This document shows, one piece after another, positions 3,478-36,279 of a stretch of DNA of 36,279 nt. The notes beneath the pieces were generated by a model. It worked only from the letters and a program-made list of their open reading frames with translations. It did no database searches and was not told the origin of the DNA. Both the position numbers and the translations under genes were made by a program. Within the stretch, counting starts at the first letter, position 1; each line of letters begins with the position of its first letter. The DNA is from an uncultured Clostridia bacterium (GTDB lineage: Bacteria; Bacillota; Clostridia; Lachnospirales; Lachnospiraceae), in contig CAMOXU010000017.1 in NCBI GenBank assembly GCA_946629525.1, positions 1 to 36,279 of the forward strand, read 5' to 3'.

Positions 3478-5811
3478 ATGGACAACAATAACAATAACCG
3501 CCCCGGTGGCGGCAACAACAGACAGAGTATTATCATTTTCTGCATCTGCCTGCTTGTGGGTCTCATCGGAATGAGCGTTTTCTCCAATGCGCTGAGCACC
3601 AGCACGTCGCGCGAGATCTCATATGATCAGTTCGTCAGGATGCTGGATGAAGGAAATGTCGAAAAAGTCGAGATCCTGCAGGAACGTCTGGAGATCACGC
3701 CGAAGAATCAGACGGAAGGCTACGGCAGCATCACCTACTACACGCAGCAGACGGAGGATATCACCGCGCTGACGGAAAGACTGATCGCCCATGGGGTCAG
3801 CTTCTCCAGACAGGAGACCTCGGTGGTATCGGAGATCGTCTACTCGATCCTCTCCTTCCTCATACCGTTCGTCCTCTTTATGGTCCTTCTGAGCGTCTTC
3901 ATGAACCGGATGAACAAGGGCGGCGGAGTGATGGGAGTCGGCAAGAGCAAGGCCAAAGCGTACATCCAGAAGGATACCGGGATCACATTTGCGGATGTTG
4001 CCGGTGAAGACGAAGCCAAGGAAAGCCTTCAGGAGTGTGTGGAGTTCCTGCACAATCCGGGCAAATTCACGGCTGTCGGCGCGAAACTGCCGAAGGGCGC
4101 GCTGCTCGTCGGACCTCCCGGCACAGGCAAGACGCTGCTTGCCAAGGCGGTAGCGGGGGAGGCGCATGTTCCGTTCTTCTCGCTTTCCGGTTCTGAATTT
4201 GTCGAAATGTTCGTCGGTGTCGGTGCAAGCCGTGTCCGTGACCTCTTTGAGGAAGCCAAGAAGAACGCTCCATGCATCATTTTCATCGATGAGATCGATG
4301 CGATCGGAAAATCCCGCGACGGCGGACGCTACGGAGGAAATGACGAACGCGAACAGACGCTGAACCAGCTGCTTGCGGAGATGGACGGCTTTGACGGGAC
4401 AAAGGGGATCATGATCCTCGCTGCGACGAACAGGCCGGAAGTCCTTGACAAGGCCCTTCTGCGTCCGGGCCGCTTTGACAGACGTGTCATCGTCGACAGA
4501 CCTGACCTGAAGGGAAGGATCGCGATCCTCAAGGTGCACGCGAAGGATGTGCTCATGGATGACACGGTCGATCTCGAGGGAATCGCGCTCGCGACCAGCG
4601 GTGCAGTCGGTTCGGATCTCGCCAATATGATCAATGAGGCGGCTATCCTTGCCGTCAAGAAGGGAAGACACCAGGTCTGCCAGAAGGATCTGCTCGAGGC
4701 TGTCGAGGTCGTGCTCGTCGGCAAGGAGAAGAAGGACAGGATCCTTGGAGTCGAGGAGAGACGGATCGTATCCTACCATGAGATCGGACACGCGCTCCTT
4801 TCTGCTCTTCAGAAGAATACGGAGCCTGTGCAGAAGATCACGATCACCCCGCGTACGATGGGCGCGCTCGGCTATGTCATGAATGTTCCGGAAGAGGAGA
4901 AGTTCCTGAATACCCGGAAAGAACTTGAGGCACGTCTGGTCCAGCTGCTTGGCGGCCGTGCAGCCGAGGAGATCGTCTTCGATACGGTAACGACCGGCGC
5001 TTCCAACGATATCGAGCAGGCGACGAAGATCGCGCGCGCGATGATCACACAGTACGGCATGTCCGAAAAGTTCGGCCTTATGGGACTTGCGAGCGTCGAG
5101 AACCAGTATCTCGATAACCGGGCTTACCTGAACTGCGGCGACGCAACGGCGACAGAGATCGACCACGAGATCATGAAGCTCCTGAAGAAGTCCTATGAGG
5201 AGGCCCTCCGCCTGCTCCGGGAGCACAGGGGCACGATGGATAAGCTTGCCGAGTATCTTATTAAGAAAGAGACGATCACCGGCGAAGAATTCATGAAGAT
5301 CTTCTGCGAAGTGGAAGGACTTCCGCTGCCGGAGAAAAAGACCAACACGCGGGAAGAGATCAACCGCGTGAAGCTTGATAAGGGAACCTGGGACGGCTCG
5401 CAGAGGAACCGGGACGAGCGCGGCCAGGATGCGTACGATCCCTATCGTACGGGATATGGAGCGCAGGATCCGTCCGGGAGCGGCAGAAGGATCTACCCGC
5501 AGAGTCAGGGCGGAAACGGCAGGACAGACTACCCGCAGGATCCGTACGGTGACAGAAGAGATGCTTCGCGGGATCCCTACGGCAGTCAGAGGAATGTTCC
5601 GCAGGATCCGTACGGCAGCCGGAGAGGATCTCAGAGGGATCCGTACGGCAGCCGGAGAGAAGGCTCGCAGGATTCTTACGGACCGCAGAGCAAAGAGGAC
5701 AGAATTTATCACGCTCCGGTCTATCCGGAAGATATGGGCTTTGAGGATTATGACTTCTCCGATCAGAAAGGAGAGGGAGGCTCTCAGGGCAGCAAAGAGA
5801 ACAAAAACTGA
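3478..5811 (+). CDS. ftsH: ATP-dependent zinc metalloprotease FtsH
   Basis: Walker A GPPGTGKT, Walker [13 protein letters not shown] region, HEIGH zinc motif, N-terminal TM segments; RBS AAGGAG. Confidence 0.97.
5539..5703 (+). repeat. 33-bp (11-aa) tandem repeat in the FtsH C-terminal tail
   Basis: [48 protein letters not shown]...; D codons at 5539, 5572, 5605, 5638, 5671. Confidence 0.9.
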
Positions 5812-5959: not shown

Positions 5960-8053
5960 ATGAGCGAGCACAAAGTGAAGAACGAACAGGAGTCGTCCGA
6001 AAAAACGACAGGGGATACAGGCAGGAACGAGCAGGAGCCGTCTGAAAAAACGGCAGGGGATACAGACAGGAACGAACAGGAATCGTCCGAAAAAATGACC
6101 GGGGATACAGACAGGAACGAACAGGATCCGTCCCAAAAACTGACCGGGAACAGAGACTTTATCATAGAGGAGGAACTGAAAAAACTCCCGGCACGGCCCG
6201 GCGTCTACATCATGCACGACGAGCACGACACGATCATATACGTCGGGAAGGCGGTCGTTCTGAAGAACCGGGTCCGCCAGTATTTTCAGAAGGGCTATAA
6301 GAAGAGCCCCAAGATCCAGCGGATGGTCTCGAAAGTGAGCCGTTTCGAGTATATCGTGACAGACTCTGAGCTGGAAGCCCTTGTGCTGGAATCCAACCTG
6401 ATCAAGGAGCACCGCCCGAAATACAACACGATGCTGAAGGATGACAAGAATTATCCTTATATCCGCGTCACGACGAACGAGATGTATCCGAGAGTCCTGA
6501 TCGCCAGATCGATGAAAAAAGACGGGTCAAAGTATTTCGGTCCGTACACGAACTCCACGGCAGTAAGGGATACGATCGAACTTCTGCGAAAGCTCTACCG
6601 GATCCGGGCCTGCAGCAAGCGCCTGCCTCAGGATGCCGGGAAGGACCGTCCGTGCCTCTACTACCATATCGGACAGTGCCTTGCCCCCTGCCAGGGGAAT
6701 GTCCCGGAGGAGGTCTACCGGGAGGGGATCGACCGGATGCTGGAGTTCCTGAAAGGAAAATATCAGCCGGAGATCGACCGCCTTACCGAGCGGATGATGA
6801 GCGCGTCGGAGGAAATGAATTTCGAGGAGGCCGCCCGCTGCCGTGACCTGATCGAGAGTATCCGCCAGATCGGAGAAAAGCAGAAGATCACAGGATCGGA
6901 CAGCGACGACAGGGATATTATCGCGATCGCGATGGACAGCGCGCAGGCGGAAAATGAGCCCGAACTCGCCTTCACCAGAAATGCTGTCGCTGCGGTGTTC
7001 TTCGTCCGCGGAGGCCGGCTGATCGGGAGAGAACATTTTCTGCTGGGCCCGGGGGATACGGATGAACCGGCGGAGGTGCTTTCCGCTTTCATTTCCCAGT
7101 ACTACGCGGGAGCGCCGTTCATACCGAAGGAGCTGATGCTTGACCGCGGGATCGCTGACCGGGAGCTTCTGGCGAGCTGGCTTACGAGCCGGCGGGGGGC
7201 AAAGGTCTCGATCCTGGTCCCGCAGAAAGGGACGAAGGAAAAGCTTGTGCAGATGGCGAGGGAAAATGCCGAGATGGTGCTCTCCCGCGACCGGGACCGC
7301 ATGAAAAGGGAGGAGCTGCGGACGATCGGGGCGGTGCGTGAGATCGCGCAGATACTGGGCCTTGCGACCGCAGAGCGTATGGAATCCTACGATATCTCCA
7401 ATATCAGCGGATTTGATTCCGTCGGCTCGATGATCGTCTACGAGAAGGGAAGGCCGAGGAAGAGCGATTACAGAAAATTCAAGATCAAGTGGGTCGAGGG
7501 ACCGAACGATTACGCCAGCATGGAGGAGGTCCTGACCAGAAGGTTCCGGCGGGCGAAGGACGGGGATCCGGGCTTTTCAAAGCTCCCGGACGTGATCCTG
7601 ATGGACGGCGGAAAGGGGCAGGTCCACTCCGCCGAGAAGGTCCTTCAGAAGCTCGGATTTGACATCCCGGTCGCCGGAATGGTGAAGGATGACTTTCACA
7701 GGACGCGCGGACTGTATTTCCATGATGAGGAGCTTCCGATCTCCAGAGATTCCGAGGGTTTTAAGCTGCTCACGAGGATCCAGGACGAGGTGCATCGCTT
7801 TGCGATCGAATATCACAGGCTCCTTCGCTCGAAGGGACAGGTGCACTCGGTCCTCGAGGACATCGAGGGAATCGGGGACGCCAGAAGAAAGTCCCTCCTT
7901 CGAACCTTCAAAACGGTGGAAGCTATCCGTGACGCCGGGATCGAGGAGCTCGCCCACGCACCGTCGATGAACCGTCAGGCAGCGCTCTCGGTCTACCGAT
8001 TCTTCCATGGTGAGGCGGGTGAGGAGACTGCCGCAGAAACCGATGAGGGTTGA
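5960..8053 (+). CDS. uvrC: Excinuclease ABC subunit C with a repeat-containing N-terminal extension
   Basis: PARPGVYIMHDEHDTIIYVGKAVVLKNRVRQYF GIY-YIG domain, UVR motif, C-terminal nuclease/HhH; RBS AAAGGAGG at 5941-5948. Confidence 0.95.
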   Translation: MSEHKVKNEQESSEKTTGDTGRNEQEPSEKTAGDTDRNEQESSEKMTGDTDRNEQDPSQKLTGNRDFIIEEELKKLPARPGVYIMHDEHDTIIYVGKAVVLKNRVRQYFQKGYKKSPKIQRMVSKVSRFEYIVTDSELEALVLESNLIKEHRPKYNTMLKDDKNYPYIRVTTNEMYPRVLIARSMKKDGSKYFGPYTNSTAVRDTIELLRKLYRIRACSKRLPQDAGKDRPCLYYHIGQCLAPCQGNVPEEVYREGIDRMLEFLKGKYQPEIDRLTERMMSASEEMNFEEAARCRDLIESIRQIGEKQKITGSDSDDRDIIAIAMDSAQAENEPELAFTRNAVAAVFFVRGGRLIGREHFLLGPGDTDEPAEVLSAFISQYYAGAPFIPKELMLDRGIADRELLASWLTSRRGAKVSILVPQKGTKEKLVQMARENAEMVLSRDRDRMKREELRTIGAVREIAQILGLATAERMESYDISNISGFDSVGSMIVYEKGRPRKSDYRKFKIKWVEGPNDYASMEEVLTRRFRRAKDGDPGFSKLPDVILMDGGKGQVHSAEKVLQKLGFDIPVAGMVKDDFHRTRGLYFHDEELPISRDSEGFKLLTRIQDEVHRFAIEYHRLLRSKGQVHSVLEDIEGIGDARRKSLLRTFKTVEAIRDAGIEELAHAPSMNRQAALSVYRFFHGEAGEETAAETDEG
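5981..6160 (+). repeat. 45-bp (15-aa) tandem repeat, about 4 units, in the uvrC N-terminus
   Basis: NEQESSEKTTGDTGR | NEQEPSEKTAGDTDR | NEQESSEKMTGDTDR | NEQDPSQKLTGNRD. Confidence 0.9.
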
Positions 8054-10295: not shown

Positions 10296-13015
10296 TCAAC
10301 TGCGACGGGTTCTCCGCCGGTATCCTCACCGCCGGTACCTTCTCCGCCGGTATCGCCTCCGGTCTCACCACCGGTGCCTTCGCCGCCGGTATCGCCGCCG
10401 GTGCCTTCTCCGCCGGTGTCGCCACCTGTCTCCCCGCCGGAGCTTTCGCCGGGAATACTGCCGGTATCACCGCCGGTGCCTTCGCCGCCGGTCTCTTCGC
10501 CCGGAGTCCAGGCGGGTTCTGTGGGCGCGGGCGTTGTGCTGCCCGGTGTGGGCGTCACGGTCTCGGCAGGTGTCTCCTGCCACTGATTCCATGTGTTATC
10601 CCATGTATTCTGCTGCGGCACGTAAGTGTGCGAGGAATCGCAGGTCTTTGTCGGAGCAGTGTTCGGAGCGAAATATTCAAGTCTGGAGCTGCATCCGTAG
10701 GTGGAGAGCAGTCCGGTCTCGAGACAGATCTCTTTCTTGAGCATTTCCTCCGGCATCTTGAACTGTCGTACCACCTGTGTCTGGGAAATCCTGTTCATTA
10801 CCTTCTTCCAGAGGATCTGATGATACGTATGTCCGATCCCCTCGTCCGGAAGATGCTCATCCCTGTCATAACCTGCCCACACACCGCATGTGTAGTAGGG
10901 TGTGTAACCGACGAACCAGACGTCGTTATAATCTGAAGTCGTACCGGTCTTGCCGGCGACAGGCATTCCGCAGTCGAGCTGGAGATTCTGGCCTGTACCG
11001 ACCGTGACGACGTCCTGCATCGCGCTGGTCAGAAGAGCGGCCGTGTACTTGCTGACGGCGTGCGTCTCCTCCGGTGTGTTGTCGATTATAATATTTCCGT
11101 CGTTGTCCTTGATGCTCGTGTAGAAAACGGGCTTGATATAGGTCCCATCATTCGCAAGGGCGGCATACGCTGCGGTCAGTTCCAGATTCGAAACACCGTT
11201 GTAGATACCGCCGAGAGCGAGCGGCTGGTAGACGTCGTAGCGGTTCGACAGCGTCGTGAAGCCGAACTTGAGAAGCTGATTATATGCTTCCTCAGGCGAG
11301 CTGTACTCTGTGATCGCCTTTACCGCGAGGACGTTCACGGAGTTCGCGATACCGTCGCGGACCGTAAGATTGCCCTGATAAGTATCCGTTAGCCAGTTGT
11401 GGACGTCCGTGCCGTCCGAGTACTTATACGGCTCGTCGACGATCACGGTCCCGAGCGTCAGCTTGCCGGTATCGATCGCGTTCGAGTAGGCTGCAAGGAC
11501 CTTGAACGTGGAACCCGGCTGTCTTGTCGTGTTCGTTGCGCGGTTCAGAGTCAGGGACGCGGTCTTCTGACCTCTTCCTCCGACGATCGCCTTTACCTTG
11601 CCTGTATTCTGCTCGATGATTACCATCGAGGACTGCGGCTGCGGCGTAAAGGAGGACGTCTCCGCGATGATCGTGTTCCCCTCGTCGGGATTCGCGACTT
11701 TGCTGCGGTAATCGTCGATGTAGACCTGACCTTCCTCCGGCGAATTGAAATACAGAGAGAAATCCGGGTGGCCGTTCTCCTGATAGAAGGTCCGGAGCAT
11801 TTCTCTGCTGTAATTGTGTACCTCGCCTGCGGCATCCTGTACGGAGAGTGCCCAGTCGAGCTCATAGATCGTGCCCTCCGGGAAATTCTCCGGGTTTGCA
11901 TATTCTTCATCACAGATGGCCTGAATGTCTATATCGAGAGTGGTATAGATCTTGAGACCGCCGGAATAAAGAGCCTGATAAGCCTGCGTCTCGGAGTAGC
12001 CCTTCTGCTTCTGCAGATCGCTTACGACCTGCTCGGTCAGCTCATCGATAAAGTAGGAGTAGACCGTATTTTCCGTCTGCGCGATCACTGTCTGCGCATC
12101 CAGGATCTCCTGATGGACGCGGTCGGATTCCGCGATCGCCCAGTCATGCTCCTCCTGTGTGATGTAGTTCTGCCGGAGCATGTCGCCGAGGACCTTCTCT
12201 CTGCGCTCGAGATTGTTTTCCCAGTGGCGGATCGGGTTGTATTTGCTCGGATTCTGAGTGATTCCGGCGATGACTGTCGCCTCCGCCAGATCCAGATTCT
12301 TCACATCCTTATTAAAATACTTTTTGGATGCCGCCTGGACACCGTAGGTCCCGCCGCCGAGATTGATCGTGTTGAGATAATTCTCGAGAATACGCTTCTT
12401 GGCAGCTTCCTTGCTGCCCAGGTCCTCGATGAGCTTCTCCTCGAGCTGCACAGCCAGGAACTGCTCCTGGAACTTTCGCTTGATGCGGTCGAGCAGAGTG
12501 ACTTCCTGCGTCCAGGTCGTGAAGACGTTGTTTTTCAGCAGCTGCTGGGTGATTGTGCTCGCTCCCTCCGTAAATTTAAAGCGATTTCTGACTCCGACGA
12601 CCGCGGCACGGATAATGCCCTTGGCGTCGATCCCGCTGTGCTGGAAAAAGCGCTCGTCCTCAACGGCGATGACCGCATTCTGAAGGCAGAGAGGAACATC
12701 ATCGATCGACACCGCGATCCGGTTCGAATTCGAGGTCGTGAGCTTCTGCAGCTGAATTTCATTTCCGTTGTTATCCGTCGCGTAAATGAAAGTCGCATAT
12801 CCGCTCGGCGCGATATTGATGTCCGAGATATCGGGGGCGTTCGCAATGATCCCCCTCGCAATGCCCAGAGTGCCGAAGATGCCTGTGATCAGGACAGAGA
12901 TAAATAAAATGAGGAGCAGCCGGAGCAGCATTACCCCGATGCGCCTCTGGAATCCCAGTGACGAGGATTCCAGCCGTTCTTCAATTCTTTCAATATTTTC
13001 TGTCGTGTAATTCAT
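10292..13015 (-). CDS. Class A penicillin-binding protein (transglycosylase/transpeptidase, PBP1A-like)
   Basis: EDERFFQHSGID, GASTITQQLLKN, GSTFKVLAAY (SxxK), KTGTTSDYNDVWFVGYTP; ATG at 13015 preferred. Confidence 0.95.
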   Translation of the reverse strand: MNYTTENIERIEERLESSSLGFQRRIGVMLLRLLLILFISVLITGIFGTLGIARGIIANAPDISDINIAPSGYATFIYATDNNGNEIQLQKLTTSNSNRIAVSIDDVPLCLQNAVIAVEDERFFQHSGIDAKGIIRAAVVGVRNRFKFTEGASTITQQLLKNNVFTTWTQEVTLLDRIKRKFQEQFLAVQLEEKLIEDLGSKEAAKKRILENYLNTINLGGGTYGVQAASKKYFNKDVKNLDLAEATVIAGITQNPSKYNPIRHWENNLERREKVLGDMLRQNYITQEEHDWAIAESDRVHQEILDAQTVIAQTENTVYSYFIDELTEQVVSDLQKQKGYSETQAYQALYSGGLKIYTTLDIDIQAICDEEYANPENFPEGTIYELDWALSVQDAAGEVHNYSREMLRTFYQENGHPDFSLYFNSPEEGQVYIDDYRSKVANPDEGNTIIAETSSFTPQPQSSMVIIEQNTGKVKAIVGGRGQKTASLTLNRATNTTRQPGSTFKVLAAYSNAIDTGKLTLGTVIVDEPYKYSDGTDVHNWLTDTYQGNLTVRDGIANSVNVLAVKAITEYSSPEEAYNQLLKFGFTTLSNRYDVYQPLALGGIYNGVSNLELTAAYAALANDGTYIKPVFYTSIKDNDGNIIIDNTPEETHAVSKYTAALLTSAMQDVVTVGTGQNLQLDCGMPVAGKTGTTSDYNDVWFVGYTPYYTCGVWAGYDRDEHLPDEGIGHTYHQILWKKVMNRISQTQVVRQFKMPEEMLKKEICLETGLLSTYGCSSRLEYFAPNTAPTKTCDSSHTYVPQQNTWDNTWNQWQETPAETVTPTPGSTTPAPTEPAWTPGEETGGEGTGGDTGSIPGESSGGETGGDTGGEGTGGDTGGEGTGGETGGDTGGEGTGGEDTGGEPVAVE
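10304..10500 (-). repeat. Degenerate tandem repeat encoding the Gly/Thr/Glu/Asp-rich PBP C-terminal tail
   Basis: GGETGGDTGGEGTGGDTGGEGTGGETGGDTGGEGTGG. Confidence 0.85.
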
Positions 13016-13897: not shown

Positions 13898-14416
13898 TCA
13901 GACTGTTTCCGGCTCCGGATATTCTGTTCCGAATGTTTCGACCGTCACGGTCTTCATGACGACCGGCTTGAGCGGCTTATCCGTGAAGCTCGTGCGGACA
14001 TTTGCGATCTCGTTCACCGCATCCATTCCCTCGGTCACCTTGCCGAATGCGGCGTACTGGCCGTCCAGATGCGGGGCAGCCTTGTGCATGATGAAGAACT
14101 GGCTTCCGGCTGAGTTCGGGTTCATTGCCCGCGCCATGGAGAGGACGCCGGGATCGTGCCGCAGATTATTCTCAAATCCGTTCATGGCGAACTCGCCGCG
14201 AATGTGATATCCCGGACCGCCTGTGCCTGTGCCAAGCGGGCAGCCGCCCTGGATCATGAAGCCGCTTATGATCCGGTGGAAGGTGAGGCCGTTGTAGAAG
14301 CCCTTTTTGACGAGGCTGATGAAATTATTGACTGTGTTCGGGGCGATCTCCGGATAGAGCTCGGCTTTGATGACTTTCCCGTCTTCCATGTTAAAGGTTA
14401 CGATTGGATTTGACAT
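13898..14416 (-). CDS. Peptidyl-prolyl cis-trans isomerase, cyclophilin type
   Basis: GLTFHRIISGFMIQGGCPLGTGTGGPGY...GSQFFIMHKAAPHLDGQYAAFGKVTEGMD; RBS AAAGGAG. Confidence 0.95.
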   Translation of the reverse strand: MSNPIVTFNMEDGKVIKAELYPEIAPNTVNNFISLVKKGFYNGLTFHRIISGFMIQGGCPLGTGTGGPGYHIRGEFAMNGFENNLRHDPGVLSMARAMNPNSAGSQFFIMHKAAPHLDGQYAAFGKVTEGMDAVNEIANVRTSFTDKPLKPVVMKTVTVETFGTEYPEPETV

Positions 14417-14457
14417 GACGATTCTCCTTTACGCAAGTATTCATGATGGGAACAATT

Positions 14458-14722
14458 ATAGCTTATCACAAGTTGCAAAGCAACTTGTGATAAAAAGGGC
14501 TGCTTATGCAGCCCGAATTCTGCTTACAGGGTTCGCGAAGCGGTTCCTGTAAGAATAGCTTATCACAAGTTGCAAAGCAACTTGTGATAAAAAGGGCTGC
14601 TATGCAGCCCGAATTCTGCTTACAGGGTTCGCGAAGCGGTTCCTGTAAGAATAGCTTATCACAAGTTGCAAAGCAGCTTGTGATAAAAAGGGCCCCCGAG
14701 GGGCCGGTCCGGCCCCCTGCAC
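14458..14722 (+). repeat. 96-97 bp tandem repeat array (two full units plus a diverged third) made of three successive hairpins
   Basis: ATAGCTTATCACAAGTTGCAAAGC starts at 14458, 14555 and 14651; each full unit holds a 14-bp, a 7-bp and an 8-bp stem hairpin. Confidence 0.92.
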
Positions 14723-14737
14723 AGAATATGTTTCTAA

Positions 14738-14766
14738 TTTACGGAAGAGGGATTGTGTGATATACT
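14738..14766 (+). promoter_or_regulatory. Candidate promoter for tsaE
   Basis: TTTACG - 17 bp - TATACT directly downstream of the repeat array. Confidence 0.5.
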
Positions 14767-14836: not shown

Positions 14837-15283
14837 GTGAATCCGAAAATGAGAATTATTGAATCCATGAGCCGGGAGGAGACCTTCGAACTCGGCCGGG
14901 AAATCGGAAAAAATGCAAAGCCGTATTCCGTCTTCGCCCTCACGGGAGATCTTGGGACGGGCAAGACGGTCTTTACGCAGGGCGTAGCCTGCGGGCTCGG
15001 GATCACCGAACCGGTCACCAGCCCGACCTTTACGATCCTGCAGACATATGACGGGGGCAGACTTCCCTTTTTTCATTTTGATGTATACCGGATCGACGAT
15101 ATCGACGAGATGGAGGAGATCGGCTATGACGACTGCTTCATGAAGGGCGGAGTGTGTCTCATCGAGTGGGCGGAGATCATTGAGGAACTTCTGCCGGAGA
15201 ATACCGTGAGAATAAAGATCGAGAAGGATCCCGCGAAAGGGACGGAGTACAGGCGGATCACTGTCACGGGAGAACTGTTCTGA
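14837..15283 (+). CDS. tsaE: tRNA (adenosine(37)-N6)-threonylcarbamoyltransferase complex ATPase TsaE
   Basis: LTGDLGTGKTVFTQGVACGLGI...SPTFTILQTY...HFDVYRI...LIEWAE. Confidence 0.95.
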   Translation: MNPKMRIIESMSREETFELGREIGKNAKPYSVFALTGDLGTGKTVFTQGVACGLGITEPVTSPTFTILQTYDGGRLPFFHFDVYRIDDIDEMEEIGYDDCFMKGGVCLIEWAEIIEELLPENTVRIKIEKDPAKGTEYRRITVTGELF

Positions 15284-28416: not shown

Positions 28417-29754
28417 ATGAATATGAGAGCTGAAATCGAGAAGCATCTGAACGATCTGATCATCCCTTTCTGGGAAAAACTTATAGATAAGGAAAACGGC
28501 GGATTTTACGGCTACATGGGGTATGATCTCGCCGTCGATAAAGAAGCGGTGAAGGGATGCATCCTGAACAGCCGCATCACATGGGTCTTCTCCGCCGCGG
28601 CCAAATATTATGAAGAGAGGAACCCGGAGAAGGCTTCGGAGCTCCTTTCCTATGCCCGCCACGGATATGAATTCATGAGATCCGCCTGCTATGACGGGGA
28701 ATACGGCGGGATGCTCTGGTCCGTCACATTTGACGGGAAGCCGGAGGATACGACGAAGCACACCTATAACCAGGCTTTCTCGATCTATGCGCTCGCGGCC
28801 TACTACGATGCTTCGGGGGATTCGGAAGCACTCGCCCTTGCGCAGGAGATCTACAATATCATCGAGACGAAGTGCCGCGACGAGGGCGGTTATCTCGAGG
28901 CCTTTGACAGAGCGTTCGGGCCCGGGTACAATGACAAGCTCTCGGAGAACGGCGTCATCGCAGAGCGCACGATGAATACCGCTCTGCATGTCCTTGAGGC
29001 ATACACGGAATTCTACAGGATGCTTACAGTCTGCGAGCGGGAAGGCAAAACCTTTGCCGGAGCCGTTCCGGCAAGAGAAGTCGGGGAGAAGCTCGTCGAG
29101 ATCCTCCGCATCTTCGCCGACAAGATGTATAATCCCGAAAAGCACCGCCAGGAAGTCTTCTTTGACCATGAGTACAATACGCTGATCGACCTCATTTCCT
29201 ACGGGCACGACATTGAATCCTCCTGGCTCATTGACCGCACGGTGGATGTGATCCGTGCCGCCCTGACGGGAGGAGAACTCACGGCCGACGCTGTCACGGC
29301 GATGGCGGCTGAACCGGCTCCTGTCCTTCAGGAGTTCGCCTCCACCGACGAGGCCATGTCAGAGGTCTTCGCGCTCCTTGACCGCGTGAACCGCATGGAT
29401 GCCGAGATGCTCGACAACGTGACGCGGGAAGCCTTCGACGGGCATTCGCTTGCCATGGAGGCGGAGAACGGCGTGAAAAATGAAGACCGCATCTGGTGGG
29501 CCCAGGGCGAAATGATCACCGCGTTCTGGAACGGCTGGCAGCATGATCCGGAGAGAGAAGACTATAAGGAAAATGCAGAGGCTGCCTGGGTGTTCGTGCG
29601 CGACATGCTGACGGATAAGCGCGAGGGATCCGAATGGTTCTGGCTTCTTGACAAGGACGGAAAGCCCTATGAGGACAGGCCAATCGTCGAGCCGTGGAAG
29701 TGCCCGTACCACAACGGACGGATGTGCCTTGAGATGATGCGGCGGCTTCCGTAA
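28417..29754 (+). CDS. AGE-family epimerase (cellobiose 2-epimerase / N-acylglucosamine 2-epimerase-like)
   Basis: IIPFWEKLIDKENGGFYGYMGYDL...SRITWVFSAA...KHTYNQAFSIYALAAYY...WWAQGEMITAFWNGW. Confidence 0.88.
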   Translation: MNMRAEIEKHLNDLIIPFWEKLIDKENGGFYGYMGYDLAVDKEAVKGCILNSRITWVFSAAAKYYEERNPEKASELLSYARHGYEFMRSACYDGEYGGMLWSVTFDGKPEDTTKHTYNQAFSIYALAAYYDASGDSEALALAQEIYNIIETKCRDEGGYLEAFDRAFGPGYNDKLSENGVIAERTMNTALHVLEAYTEFYRMLTVCEREGKTFAGAVPAREVGEKLVEILRIFADKMYNPEKHRQEVFFDHEYNTLIDLISYGHDIESSWLIDRTVDVIRAALTGGELTADAVTAMAAEPAPVLQEFASTDEAMSEVFALLDRVNRMDAEMLDNVTREAFDGHSLAMEAENGVKNEDRIWWAQGEMITAFWNGWQHDPEREDYKENAEAAWVFVRDMLTDKREGSEWFWLLDKDGKPYEDRPIVEPWKCPYHNGRMCLEMMRRLP

Positions 29755-29915
29755 GCATGAGTGTACGAGATGATGAGACGGATCCTGTGAAGCGCGAGTA
29801 TACGAGATGTTGACACGGATCCCATGAAGCGCGAGTGTACGAGATGCTGACAGGGATCCTGCGAAGCATGACTATACCGGATGATGGAGCGGCCTTCATG
29901 AGGCACGAATATATC
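29718..29915 (+). repeat. Degenerate tandem repeat, about 37 bp period, about 4-5 copies, extending from the AGE epimerase 3' end
   Basis: TGTACGAGATGATGAGACGGATCCTGTGAAGCGCGAG and variants; the gene 3' end (GAGATGATGCGGCGGCTTCCGTAAGCATGAG) matches the unit. Confidence 0.8.
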
Positions 29916-33490: not shown

Positions 33491-33562
33491 TCCTCGATAG
33501 CTCAATGGTAGAGCACTCGGCTGTTAACCGAGTTGTTGTAGGTTCGAGCCCTACTCGGGGAG
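33491..33562 (+). tRNA. tRNA-Asn (anticodon GTT)
   Basis: TCCTCGATAGCTCAATGGTAGAGCACTCGGCTGTTAACCGAGTTG...GGTTCGAGCCCTACTCGGGGAG. Confidence 0.95.
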
Positions 33563-33632
33563 CTGCGAAGCATATCAGATTCCAAACCGAATGACTGTTC
33601 CGGATCGGAAAACTGAATCCTTCGTTTTCCCT

Positions 33633-33706
33633 GGATCATTAGCTCAGTTGGTCAGAGCAGTCGGCTCATAACCGATCGGTCCGGGGTTCAAGTCCCTGAT
33701 GATCCA
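33633..33706 (+). tRNA. tRNA-Met (anticodon CAT)
   Basis: GGATCATTAGCTCAGTTGGTCAGAGCAGTCGGCTCATAACCGATCGGTCCGGGGTTCAAGTCCCTGATGATCCA; a lysidine-modified Ile tRNA cannot be excluded by eye. Confidence 0.88.
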
Positions 33707-33765
33707 CTTGCGGCAGTGCGGGCGATATGCCCGTCGGTCGCAGGAAAACTAAATATCTTCATTAC

Positions 33766-33839
33766 GGCTCAGTGGTACAGTTGGTTAGTACGCCGCCCTG
33801 TCACGGCGGAGGTCGAGGGTTCGAGTCCCTTCTGAGTCG
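33766..33839 (+). tRNA. tRNA-Asp (anticodon GTC)
   Basis: GGCTCAGTGGTACAGTTGGTTAGTACGCCGCCCTGTCACGGCGGAGGTCGAGGGTTCGAGTCCCTTCTGAGTCG. Confidence 0.95.
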
Positions 33840-33902
33840 CTTTTTTGTTATCTTTTTTTGGCTGGCTCCCATGCCGGCCGCTTGAAGATCACAATACAAT
33901 GC

Positions 33903-33987
33903 GCCGGCATGGCGGAATTGGCAGACGCAAGAGACTTAAAATCTCTCGATTATCTCAATCGTACCGGTTCGACCCCGGTTGCCGGCA
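33903..33987 (+). tRNA. tRNA-Leu (anticodon TAA)
   Basis: GCCGGCATGGCGGAATTGGCAGACGCAAGAGACTTAAAATCTCTCG...GGTTCGACCCCGGTTGCCGGCA. Confidence 0.95.
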
Positions 33988-36164: not shown

Positions 36165-36279
36165 ATATATCTTATCGGAAGTTGCGTAAGCAACTGACGA
36201 TAAAAGGGCTGCAACGCAGACCGAATTATGATTATGAGGTTCGCGAAGCGGTTCTCATAATATATCTTATCGGAAGTTC
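36165..36279 (+). repeat. Second locus of the three-hairpin repeat (95-bp period), truncated by the window end
   Basis: ATATATCTTATCGGAAGTT at 36165 and again at 36260; contains the invariant core GTTCGCGAAGCGGTT. Confidence 0.88.

Follow-up and report, generated by a model that had tools for sequence, protein, structure and literature searches.

Mobile elements of the IS200/IS605 group (HUH/Y1) have end hairpins that are recognised in single-stranded DNA, and they insert 3' of a short AT-rich sequence. A fixed multi-base target duplication is the mark of most DDE transposases. REP elements typically lie at the 3' ends of genes, and Correia elements of Neisseria have terminal inverted repeats with a TA duplication. 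The Correia elements are small mobile repeats that adjoin promoters, one of them directly downstream of the mtrCDE promoter, and they have been reported to encode promoters (PMC10969869). Pneumococcal BOX elements are modular structured repeats of variable tandem copy number that affect neighbouring genes and have been read as parasitic (PMC3049150). The bcr1-bcr18 families of Bacillus cereus are structured, mobile-like repeats in 5' and 3' UTRs, some of which were suggested to be RNA elements (PMC3446304).

Being small, mobile and structured, the element analysed here resembles the BOX, Correia and bcr families. Like BOX, it is modular and varies in tandem copy number; in BOX, however, the end modules boxA and boxC enclose a repeated boxB, whereas here the whole three-hairpin unit repeats, and a sequence relation between the two was checked via Rfam only (PMC3049150). 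Like Correia elements, it lies next to promoters (PMC10969869), but it lacks terminal inverted repeats and prefers to land behind existing -10 boxes. The bcr repeats belong to another genus, and the cited portion of their description reports no -10-box preference (PMC3446304). A search of Rfam 15 placed the element in no family above its gathering threshold, the window giving tRNAs only and the array weak matches at chance level. The literature search found nothing relevant on the core sequence or on -10-targeting elements, and the family seems to be undescribed in the literature searched.

On balance, we think that this is probably a dispersed, non-autonomous element of ~95 bp that inserts as a single strand in the manner of IS200/IS605 and prefers promoter -10 boxes. 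With non-autonomous elements derived from IS200/IS605 (PATE/MITE, HUH-Y1) it shares hairpins at both ends without terminal inverted repeats, duplication of at most 1 bp at a filled and empty pair, and an AT-rich right end that resembles the target; a fixed orientation 3' of a short AT-rich target would be a further likeness, although many copies lie behind weaker sites. Unlike them, it has three hairpins, a -10-box target and head-to-tail arrays, and no parent IS with matching ends was found. A classical DDE-transposase MITE was rejected for want of terminal inverted repeats and of a fixed target-site duplication.

The window, that is, the whole stretch of DNA that was analysed (36,279 nucleotides), is the entire contig C17 of a 2.73-Mb genome in 163 contigs that is 82% complete. 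It contains two arrays of the element (Table 1), and direct reading of the second confirmed the observation of the earlier note. Hairpin III there consists of the stem ATTATGAG (36231-36238), the core GTTCGCGAAGCGGTT (36239-36253) and the stem CTCATAAT (36254-36261). The copies compared with it, at 14523-14553 and 14619-14649, read CTTACAGG-core-CCTGTAAG, and exactly four of the eight stem pairs are changed on both sides between the loci. Hairpins I and II are imperfect, as claimed. The 95-bp tandem period was also recovered, with CTTATCGG at 36171 and again at 36266, and the array is cut by the end of the window, contig C17 stopping inside it. The 15-nt core had been called invariant; it is nearly so, many copies having GGA, GCA, GTA or CAA around the tip. 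Nor is it an unpaired loop: RNA and DNA folding both continue the stem through CGC/GCG to a GAA loop, giving a CGC-GAA-GCG tip over a symmetric, conserved GUU/GUU mispair.

Table 1. Positions of the element's units, their hairpins and neighbouring features in the window.
Feature	Position	Strand	Basis
Full unit, hairpins I-II-III	36171..36262	+	Covariance model R1, 91.8 bits
Hairpin I of unit 36171, imperfect	36172..36203	+	Direct reading; folding
Hairpin II of unit 36171, imperfect	36206..36222	+	Direct reading
Hairpin III: 8-bp stem, GTT/GTT mispair, CGC-GAA-GCG tip	36231..36261	+	Direct reading; folding
Start of second tandem unit, cut by contig end	36266..36279	+	Direct reading; window is whole of C17
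First array, unit 1	14462..14554	+	Covariance model R1, 98.1 bits
First array, unit 2	14559..14650	+	Covariance model R1, 99.6 bits
First array, third unit, truncated: hairpin I kept, hairpin II replaced by a different, GC-rich hairpin	14655..14706	+	Sequence; terminator scan
Unit 1 hairpin II, antisense: intrinsic-terminator-like, stem then TTTTTAT	14497..14514	-	Terminator scan
Unit 2 hairpin II, antisense: intrinsic-terminator-like	14594..14610	-	Terminator scan
GC-rich hairpin of truncated third unit, antisense: terminator-like	14691..14705	-	Terminator scan
CTATAAT-containing stretch between first array and start of minus-strand gene 13898-14416; putative -10	14450..14462	-	-10 role inferred
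tsaE, gene downstream of first array	14837..15283	+	Pfam TsaE 9.6e-41

The core was matched three times in the window, against 0.12 expected, and in the genome 48 times exactly and 106 times with at most two mismatches, against six matches for the reversed pattern; we concluded from both excesses that the repeat is not due to chance. The covariance model R1, built from 69 sequences and spanning the entire unit (92 positions), gave 141 matches in the genome at E <=0.1. The 113 that were taken forward fell in 88 places (69 single, 13 double, 6 triple). Units were 92-95 nt long, and the genome holds ~90 dispersed copies, single or in short tandem arrays. Several assembly contigs start or stop within a copy. 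Within the genus the distribution was patchy, 11 of 42 genomes carrying from 1 to ~100 copies each, and the same element was found on rumen, ileum and faecal contigs that carry the title uncultured Lachnospiraceae (RUG13128, RGIG2452, RUG12161, RGIG5770, RGIG2359). Ten core matches in viral contigs all lacked the stem context, and scattered 17-mer matches (Streptomyces and others) lay in coding-like sequence with the stem absent; we rejected both as chance, and a viral origin with them.

Hairpin III was also found without hairpins I and II in other Lachnospiraceae, again in tandem, with a period of 36-43 bp. Such hairpin-only arrays of 36-43 bp period were seen in G067 (L215, L230, L378, L388, L394), where in some arrays the 3' arm recreates a perfect TATAAT and every unit has a -10-like box. 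In G068 and UBA7188 (L132, L139, L212, L223, L231, L235, L376-L401) hairpin III stood in another recurrent context, AACTGCTGCAATTTCCCTTTGATTACAGG...CCTGTAATNTNTTCAGGCAAAA, which is apparently a further composite element without the TATAAT flank.

The three hairpins covaried across 69 distinct units. Two-sided changes were seen at 19 of 33 pairs, compared with 11.6 in shuffles; the covariation score was 0.258 versus 0.117, with 0 of 500 shuffles as high, and sliding the structure lowered the paired fraction from 92% to 35-45%. When copies of hairpin III were picked genome-wide by the core alone, 353 of 376 stem cells were paired (shuffle maximum 336), and elsewhere in Lachnospiraceae 539 of 568 (shuffle maximum 502), although independent compensatory events are fewer than these cell counts suggest because the stem alleles swap as blocks (GAG/CTC, CAGG/CCTG, CGG/CCG). 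The earlier argument that structure, and not only sequence, is selected thus stands in that the structure is maintained, its covariation exceeding that of shuffles in the 69 units. G-U and A-C pairs outside the core were equally frequent (66 vs 67), which does not single out RNA over DNA as the selected form. The left end of the element is (A)NATCTTATCGG and the right end CTCATAAT, CCTGTAAT or CCGATAAT. Covariation and folding placed imperfect hairpins near both ends; there were no terminal inverted repeats, the ends ATCTTATCGG and GCGGTTCTCATAAT not being inverted copies of each other.

Placement relative to promoters had no part in the earlier account. The consensus of the upstream flank was TATAAT-NNAT-CTTATCGG. 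TATAAT with at most one mismatch lay directly upstream of 17 of 52 copies in the genome, against 2-3 of 52 at control offsets, and of 10 of 18 copies in other species. All ten hairpin-only copies in G067 followed a TATAAT within the same limit, six of them with a -35 box at the right spacing as well, and the order there was promoter, hairpins, ribosome-binding site and start codon. The preference was confined to one register, with many copies behind weaker sites: about two-thirds of the genome's own copies had no TATAAT at this threshold upstream, both window arrays among them. A clean same-strand TATAAT was absent at both; CTATAAT lies on the other strand at the first, next to the divergent gene, and the second is preceded by CTTATATAT. 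A promoter-like site for tsaE (-10 TATACT, 14761-14766), which is kept in G033, lies between the first array and the gene.

With gene orientation taken from a simple codon-usage gene caller, the next downstream gene was on the same strand as the element in 61 of 83 cases (61 vs 22), and gaps bearing the element were divergent in 29 cases and convergent in 8, compared with 17 and 28 for element-free gaps (p 0.0003). The downstream genes were functionally unrelated (class I tRNA synthetase, Ham1, G3P acyltransferase, Asp23, TsaE, DAHP synthase, DivIC, RpiB) and showed no single-pathway theme of the kind that marks a riboswitch or regulon.

For eight loci the element was removed in silico, and the flanks so joined were searched for in twelve related genomes. 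At five loci, C54 (divIC), C57, C48, C41 (asp23) and C40 (glycoside hydrolase 32), G033 and/or G035 had the -10 box and the gene start without the element, the spacers between box and gene not always being alignable. The cleanest pair came from a dispersed flank, of which this genome (G000) had two filled copies, GATTGTT-[GATCTTATC...CTCATAAT]-TTGAATTG, and G035 empty ones, GATTGTTTGAATTG, with at most 1 bp duplicated. Such clean filled and empty pairs indicate that copies are gained or lost as exact units, loss and gain not being separable at single loci. No fixed multi-base target duplication was present at this pair (<=1 bp) or evident at the five empty loci. Bases preceding the element match those at its 3' end slightly more often than expected, a hint that there could be a short target duplication, although the decay of old copies can also cause it; we rejected such a duplication as a weak signal that the clean filled and empty pair does not support. 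At the window's first array the spacer alignment was too poor to place a junction. The dispersed repeat AAGAAGTTCYAAGGCTTGTGCAGATTGTTTGAATTGYTCACAYAATT was seen with and without an inserted element (L008, minus, around 1411; L040, plus, 37; L085, plus, 1569; L404, minus, 2187). A second recurrent flank, AAAAGCCTCCGGCGGATYGCA (L076, L092, L094 at 1525; L103, minus, at 2018), looks like a further dispersed repeat: in three genomes it adjoined the element, and in one it adjoined a copy of IS200.

Of the 69 units, 62 had a run of at least four A directly 5' of hairpin II. On the minus strand this becomes hairpin II followed by a T-run, and the terminator scan predicted intrinsic terminators of this form in the first array and none there in the sense direction. 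In most copies hairpin II and the conserved A-run form the motif of an intrinsic terminator for antisense transcription. The unit at 36171, being imperfect, gave no terminator score. The first array's truncated third unit is still predicted to form an antisense terminator despite the replaced hairpin II.

Mutation alone, through unrelated inverted duplications or palindrome correction, might give the look of covariation, as hairpin-templated correction can yield paired changes without selection. The blockwise change of stem alleles and one copy (C75) with arms of two alleles point that way, but one three-hairpin plan with core and linkers recurs in dozens of dispersed copies in several species, and template correction would have repaired the GTT/GTT mispair, yet it is retained uncorrected in nearly all copies; we consider the explanation highly improbable. 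Its form as unrelated inverted duplications is largely refuted by the genome core counts, the covariation and the R1 matches. Because template-switch palindrome correction would have repaired it, the mispair is better evidence than covariation for a recognised structure, and the best sign of recognition by something. The earlier note had proposed looking for a RAYT (TnpA_REP)-type transposase in the genome; on that reading a REP-type element would be moved by such a protein, with hairpin III as the REP and the array as a BIME-like cluster. The element is like REP/BIME in being a short imperfect palindrome (REPs are ~20-40 nt) with a conserved internal mispair, present at high copy, intergenic and in tandem, and hairpin III alone forms tandem arrays in other Lachnospiraceae. 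Nevertheless, no RAYT was found in the genome, an absence that is not final at 82% completeness; the only Y1 transposase there, at the end of contig C124, is of the IS200 type and its end hairpins are unrelated to the element. Long RAYT-like Y1 proteins do not track the repeat and occur mostly in genomes without it. No GTAG/CGTC-type tag stands beside the palindrome, the conserved flank of hairpin III being GAATTATGA; units follow one another head to tail and do not form inverted pairs; copies lie close to promoters and are over-represented in divergent gaps; and the host belongs to Lachnospiraceae. Among the features tested, the element lacks some that define REP/RAYT elements and others that define classical MITEs, and RAYT as mobiliser was rejected for now, given the IS200-type Y1 and the RAYT-like proteins that do not track the repeat; we consider a REP origin unlikely.

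The copies could also be host cis-regulatory RNAs or operators, 5' message hairpins that are bound by a host factor and have spread because they regulate. Placement in the 5' leader between the -10 box and the ribosome-binding site, clearest in G067, would suit this, as would covariation together with the conserved GUU/GUU mispair. We find it unlikely, since no theme unites the downstream genes, the element is missing from orthologous promoters of relatives and from most species of the genus altogether, and many copies are not behind a -10 box. A site-specific recombinase or other enzyme acting via a circle, whose joint CATAAT-ATAT-CTTATC would recombine with ATAAT-like targets, could account for tandem growth, for a tandem junction identical to the circle joint, for the short ATAAT identity between target and element end and for the slight agreement of left and right junction letters. 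Against it, no gene is linked to the element, end hairpins with conserved mispairs better fit single-strand recognition, and dispersed promoters would be unusual targets for such enzymes, so that we hold this explanation, too, to be improbable.

Searching for a mobiliser, we found no element-type hairpins at any transposase gene and no core hairpin near any Y1 gene examined. IS200 ends were rejected as parents of the element for want of a match; the element is consequently classed as working like the IS200/IS605 group and not as a member. IS200-type TnpA was present in 11 of 11 element-bearing genomes, G022 having only fragments of the gene, compared with 5 of the 31 remaining genomes in the genus (p 1e-6). 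This co-occurrence is a lead only and may reflect general mobile-DNA load or shared ancestry, because a genome with many copies of one mobile element often has many of others too. IS256 leaned towards element-bearing genomes more weakly (p 0.02) and reverse transcriptase showed no lean; both were rejected as mobiliser, neither being found in our genome, which has the most copies.

Single-strand insertion of the IS200/IS605 type fits because insertion is clean, terminal inverted repeats are absent, hairpins lie at the ends, orientation appears to be single, and the short AT-rich target matches the right end. The sequence itself shows how many copies there are, how they fold and covary, where they lie and their bias in orientation, as well as the clean empty sites and the antisense terminator motif; the single-strand mechanism, enzyme class, transcription and effect on the host are inferred. 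The element would fold as a single strand into three hairpins and insert, in a single orientation, 3' of a TATAAT-like sequence, above all at promoter -10 boxes, with neither terminal inverted repeats nor multi-base target duplication. Its right end recreates the ATAAT target, so that a new copy could insert behind the old one and build 95-bp tandem arrays. A copy behind a promoter would be transcribed in the sense direction as a structured 5' leader at the front of the host gene's message. Hosts might tolerate such copies because the unit is not predicted to terminate in sense, and hairpin II with the A-run would terminate antisense transcription.

Melting of the -10 box in the open promoter complex leaves its non-template strand single-stranded, which would explain both target choice and orientation. 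We put forward only tentatively, as rather less than probable, that the element targets the open transcription bubble, joining the non-template strand that an active promoter exposes just 3' of its melted -10 box, and becoming the first transcribed sequence of host genes across Lachnospiraceae. Repeats that are small and structured are common, but one with a preference for the interval from the -10 box to the first transcribed base would bring a new target logic to bacterial mobile DNA, and a means of rewriting many 5' leaders at once; insertion frequency should track promoter activity, and hairpin I should stand at the start of messages. The hosts are abundant bacteria of the rumen and gut, and their assemblies break at the element, C17 and several other contigs ending inside it.

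The window also carries a cluster of four tRNA genes on the plus strand (33491-33987). Other tandem repeats in it, at 5533-5681, 5980-6139, 10311-10501 and 29731-29908, have periods of, for example, 33/66, 45, 27/39 and 37/74 bp, and lie mostly within long open frames or at their ends.
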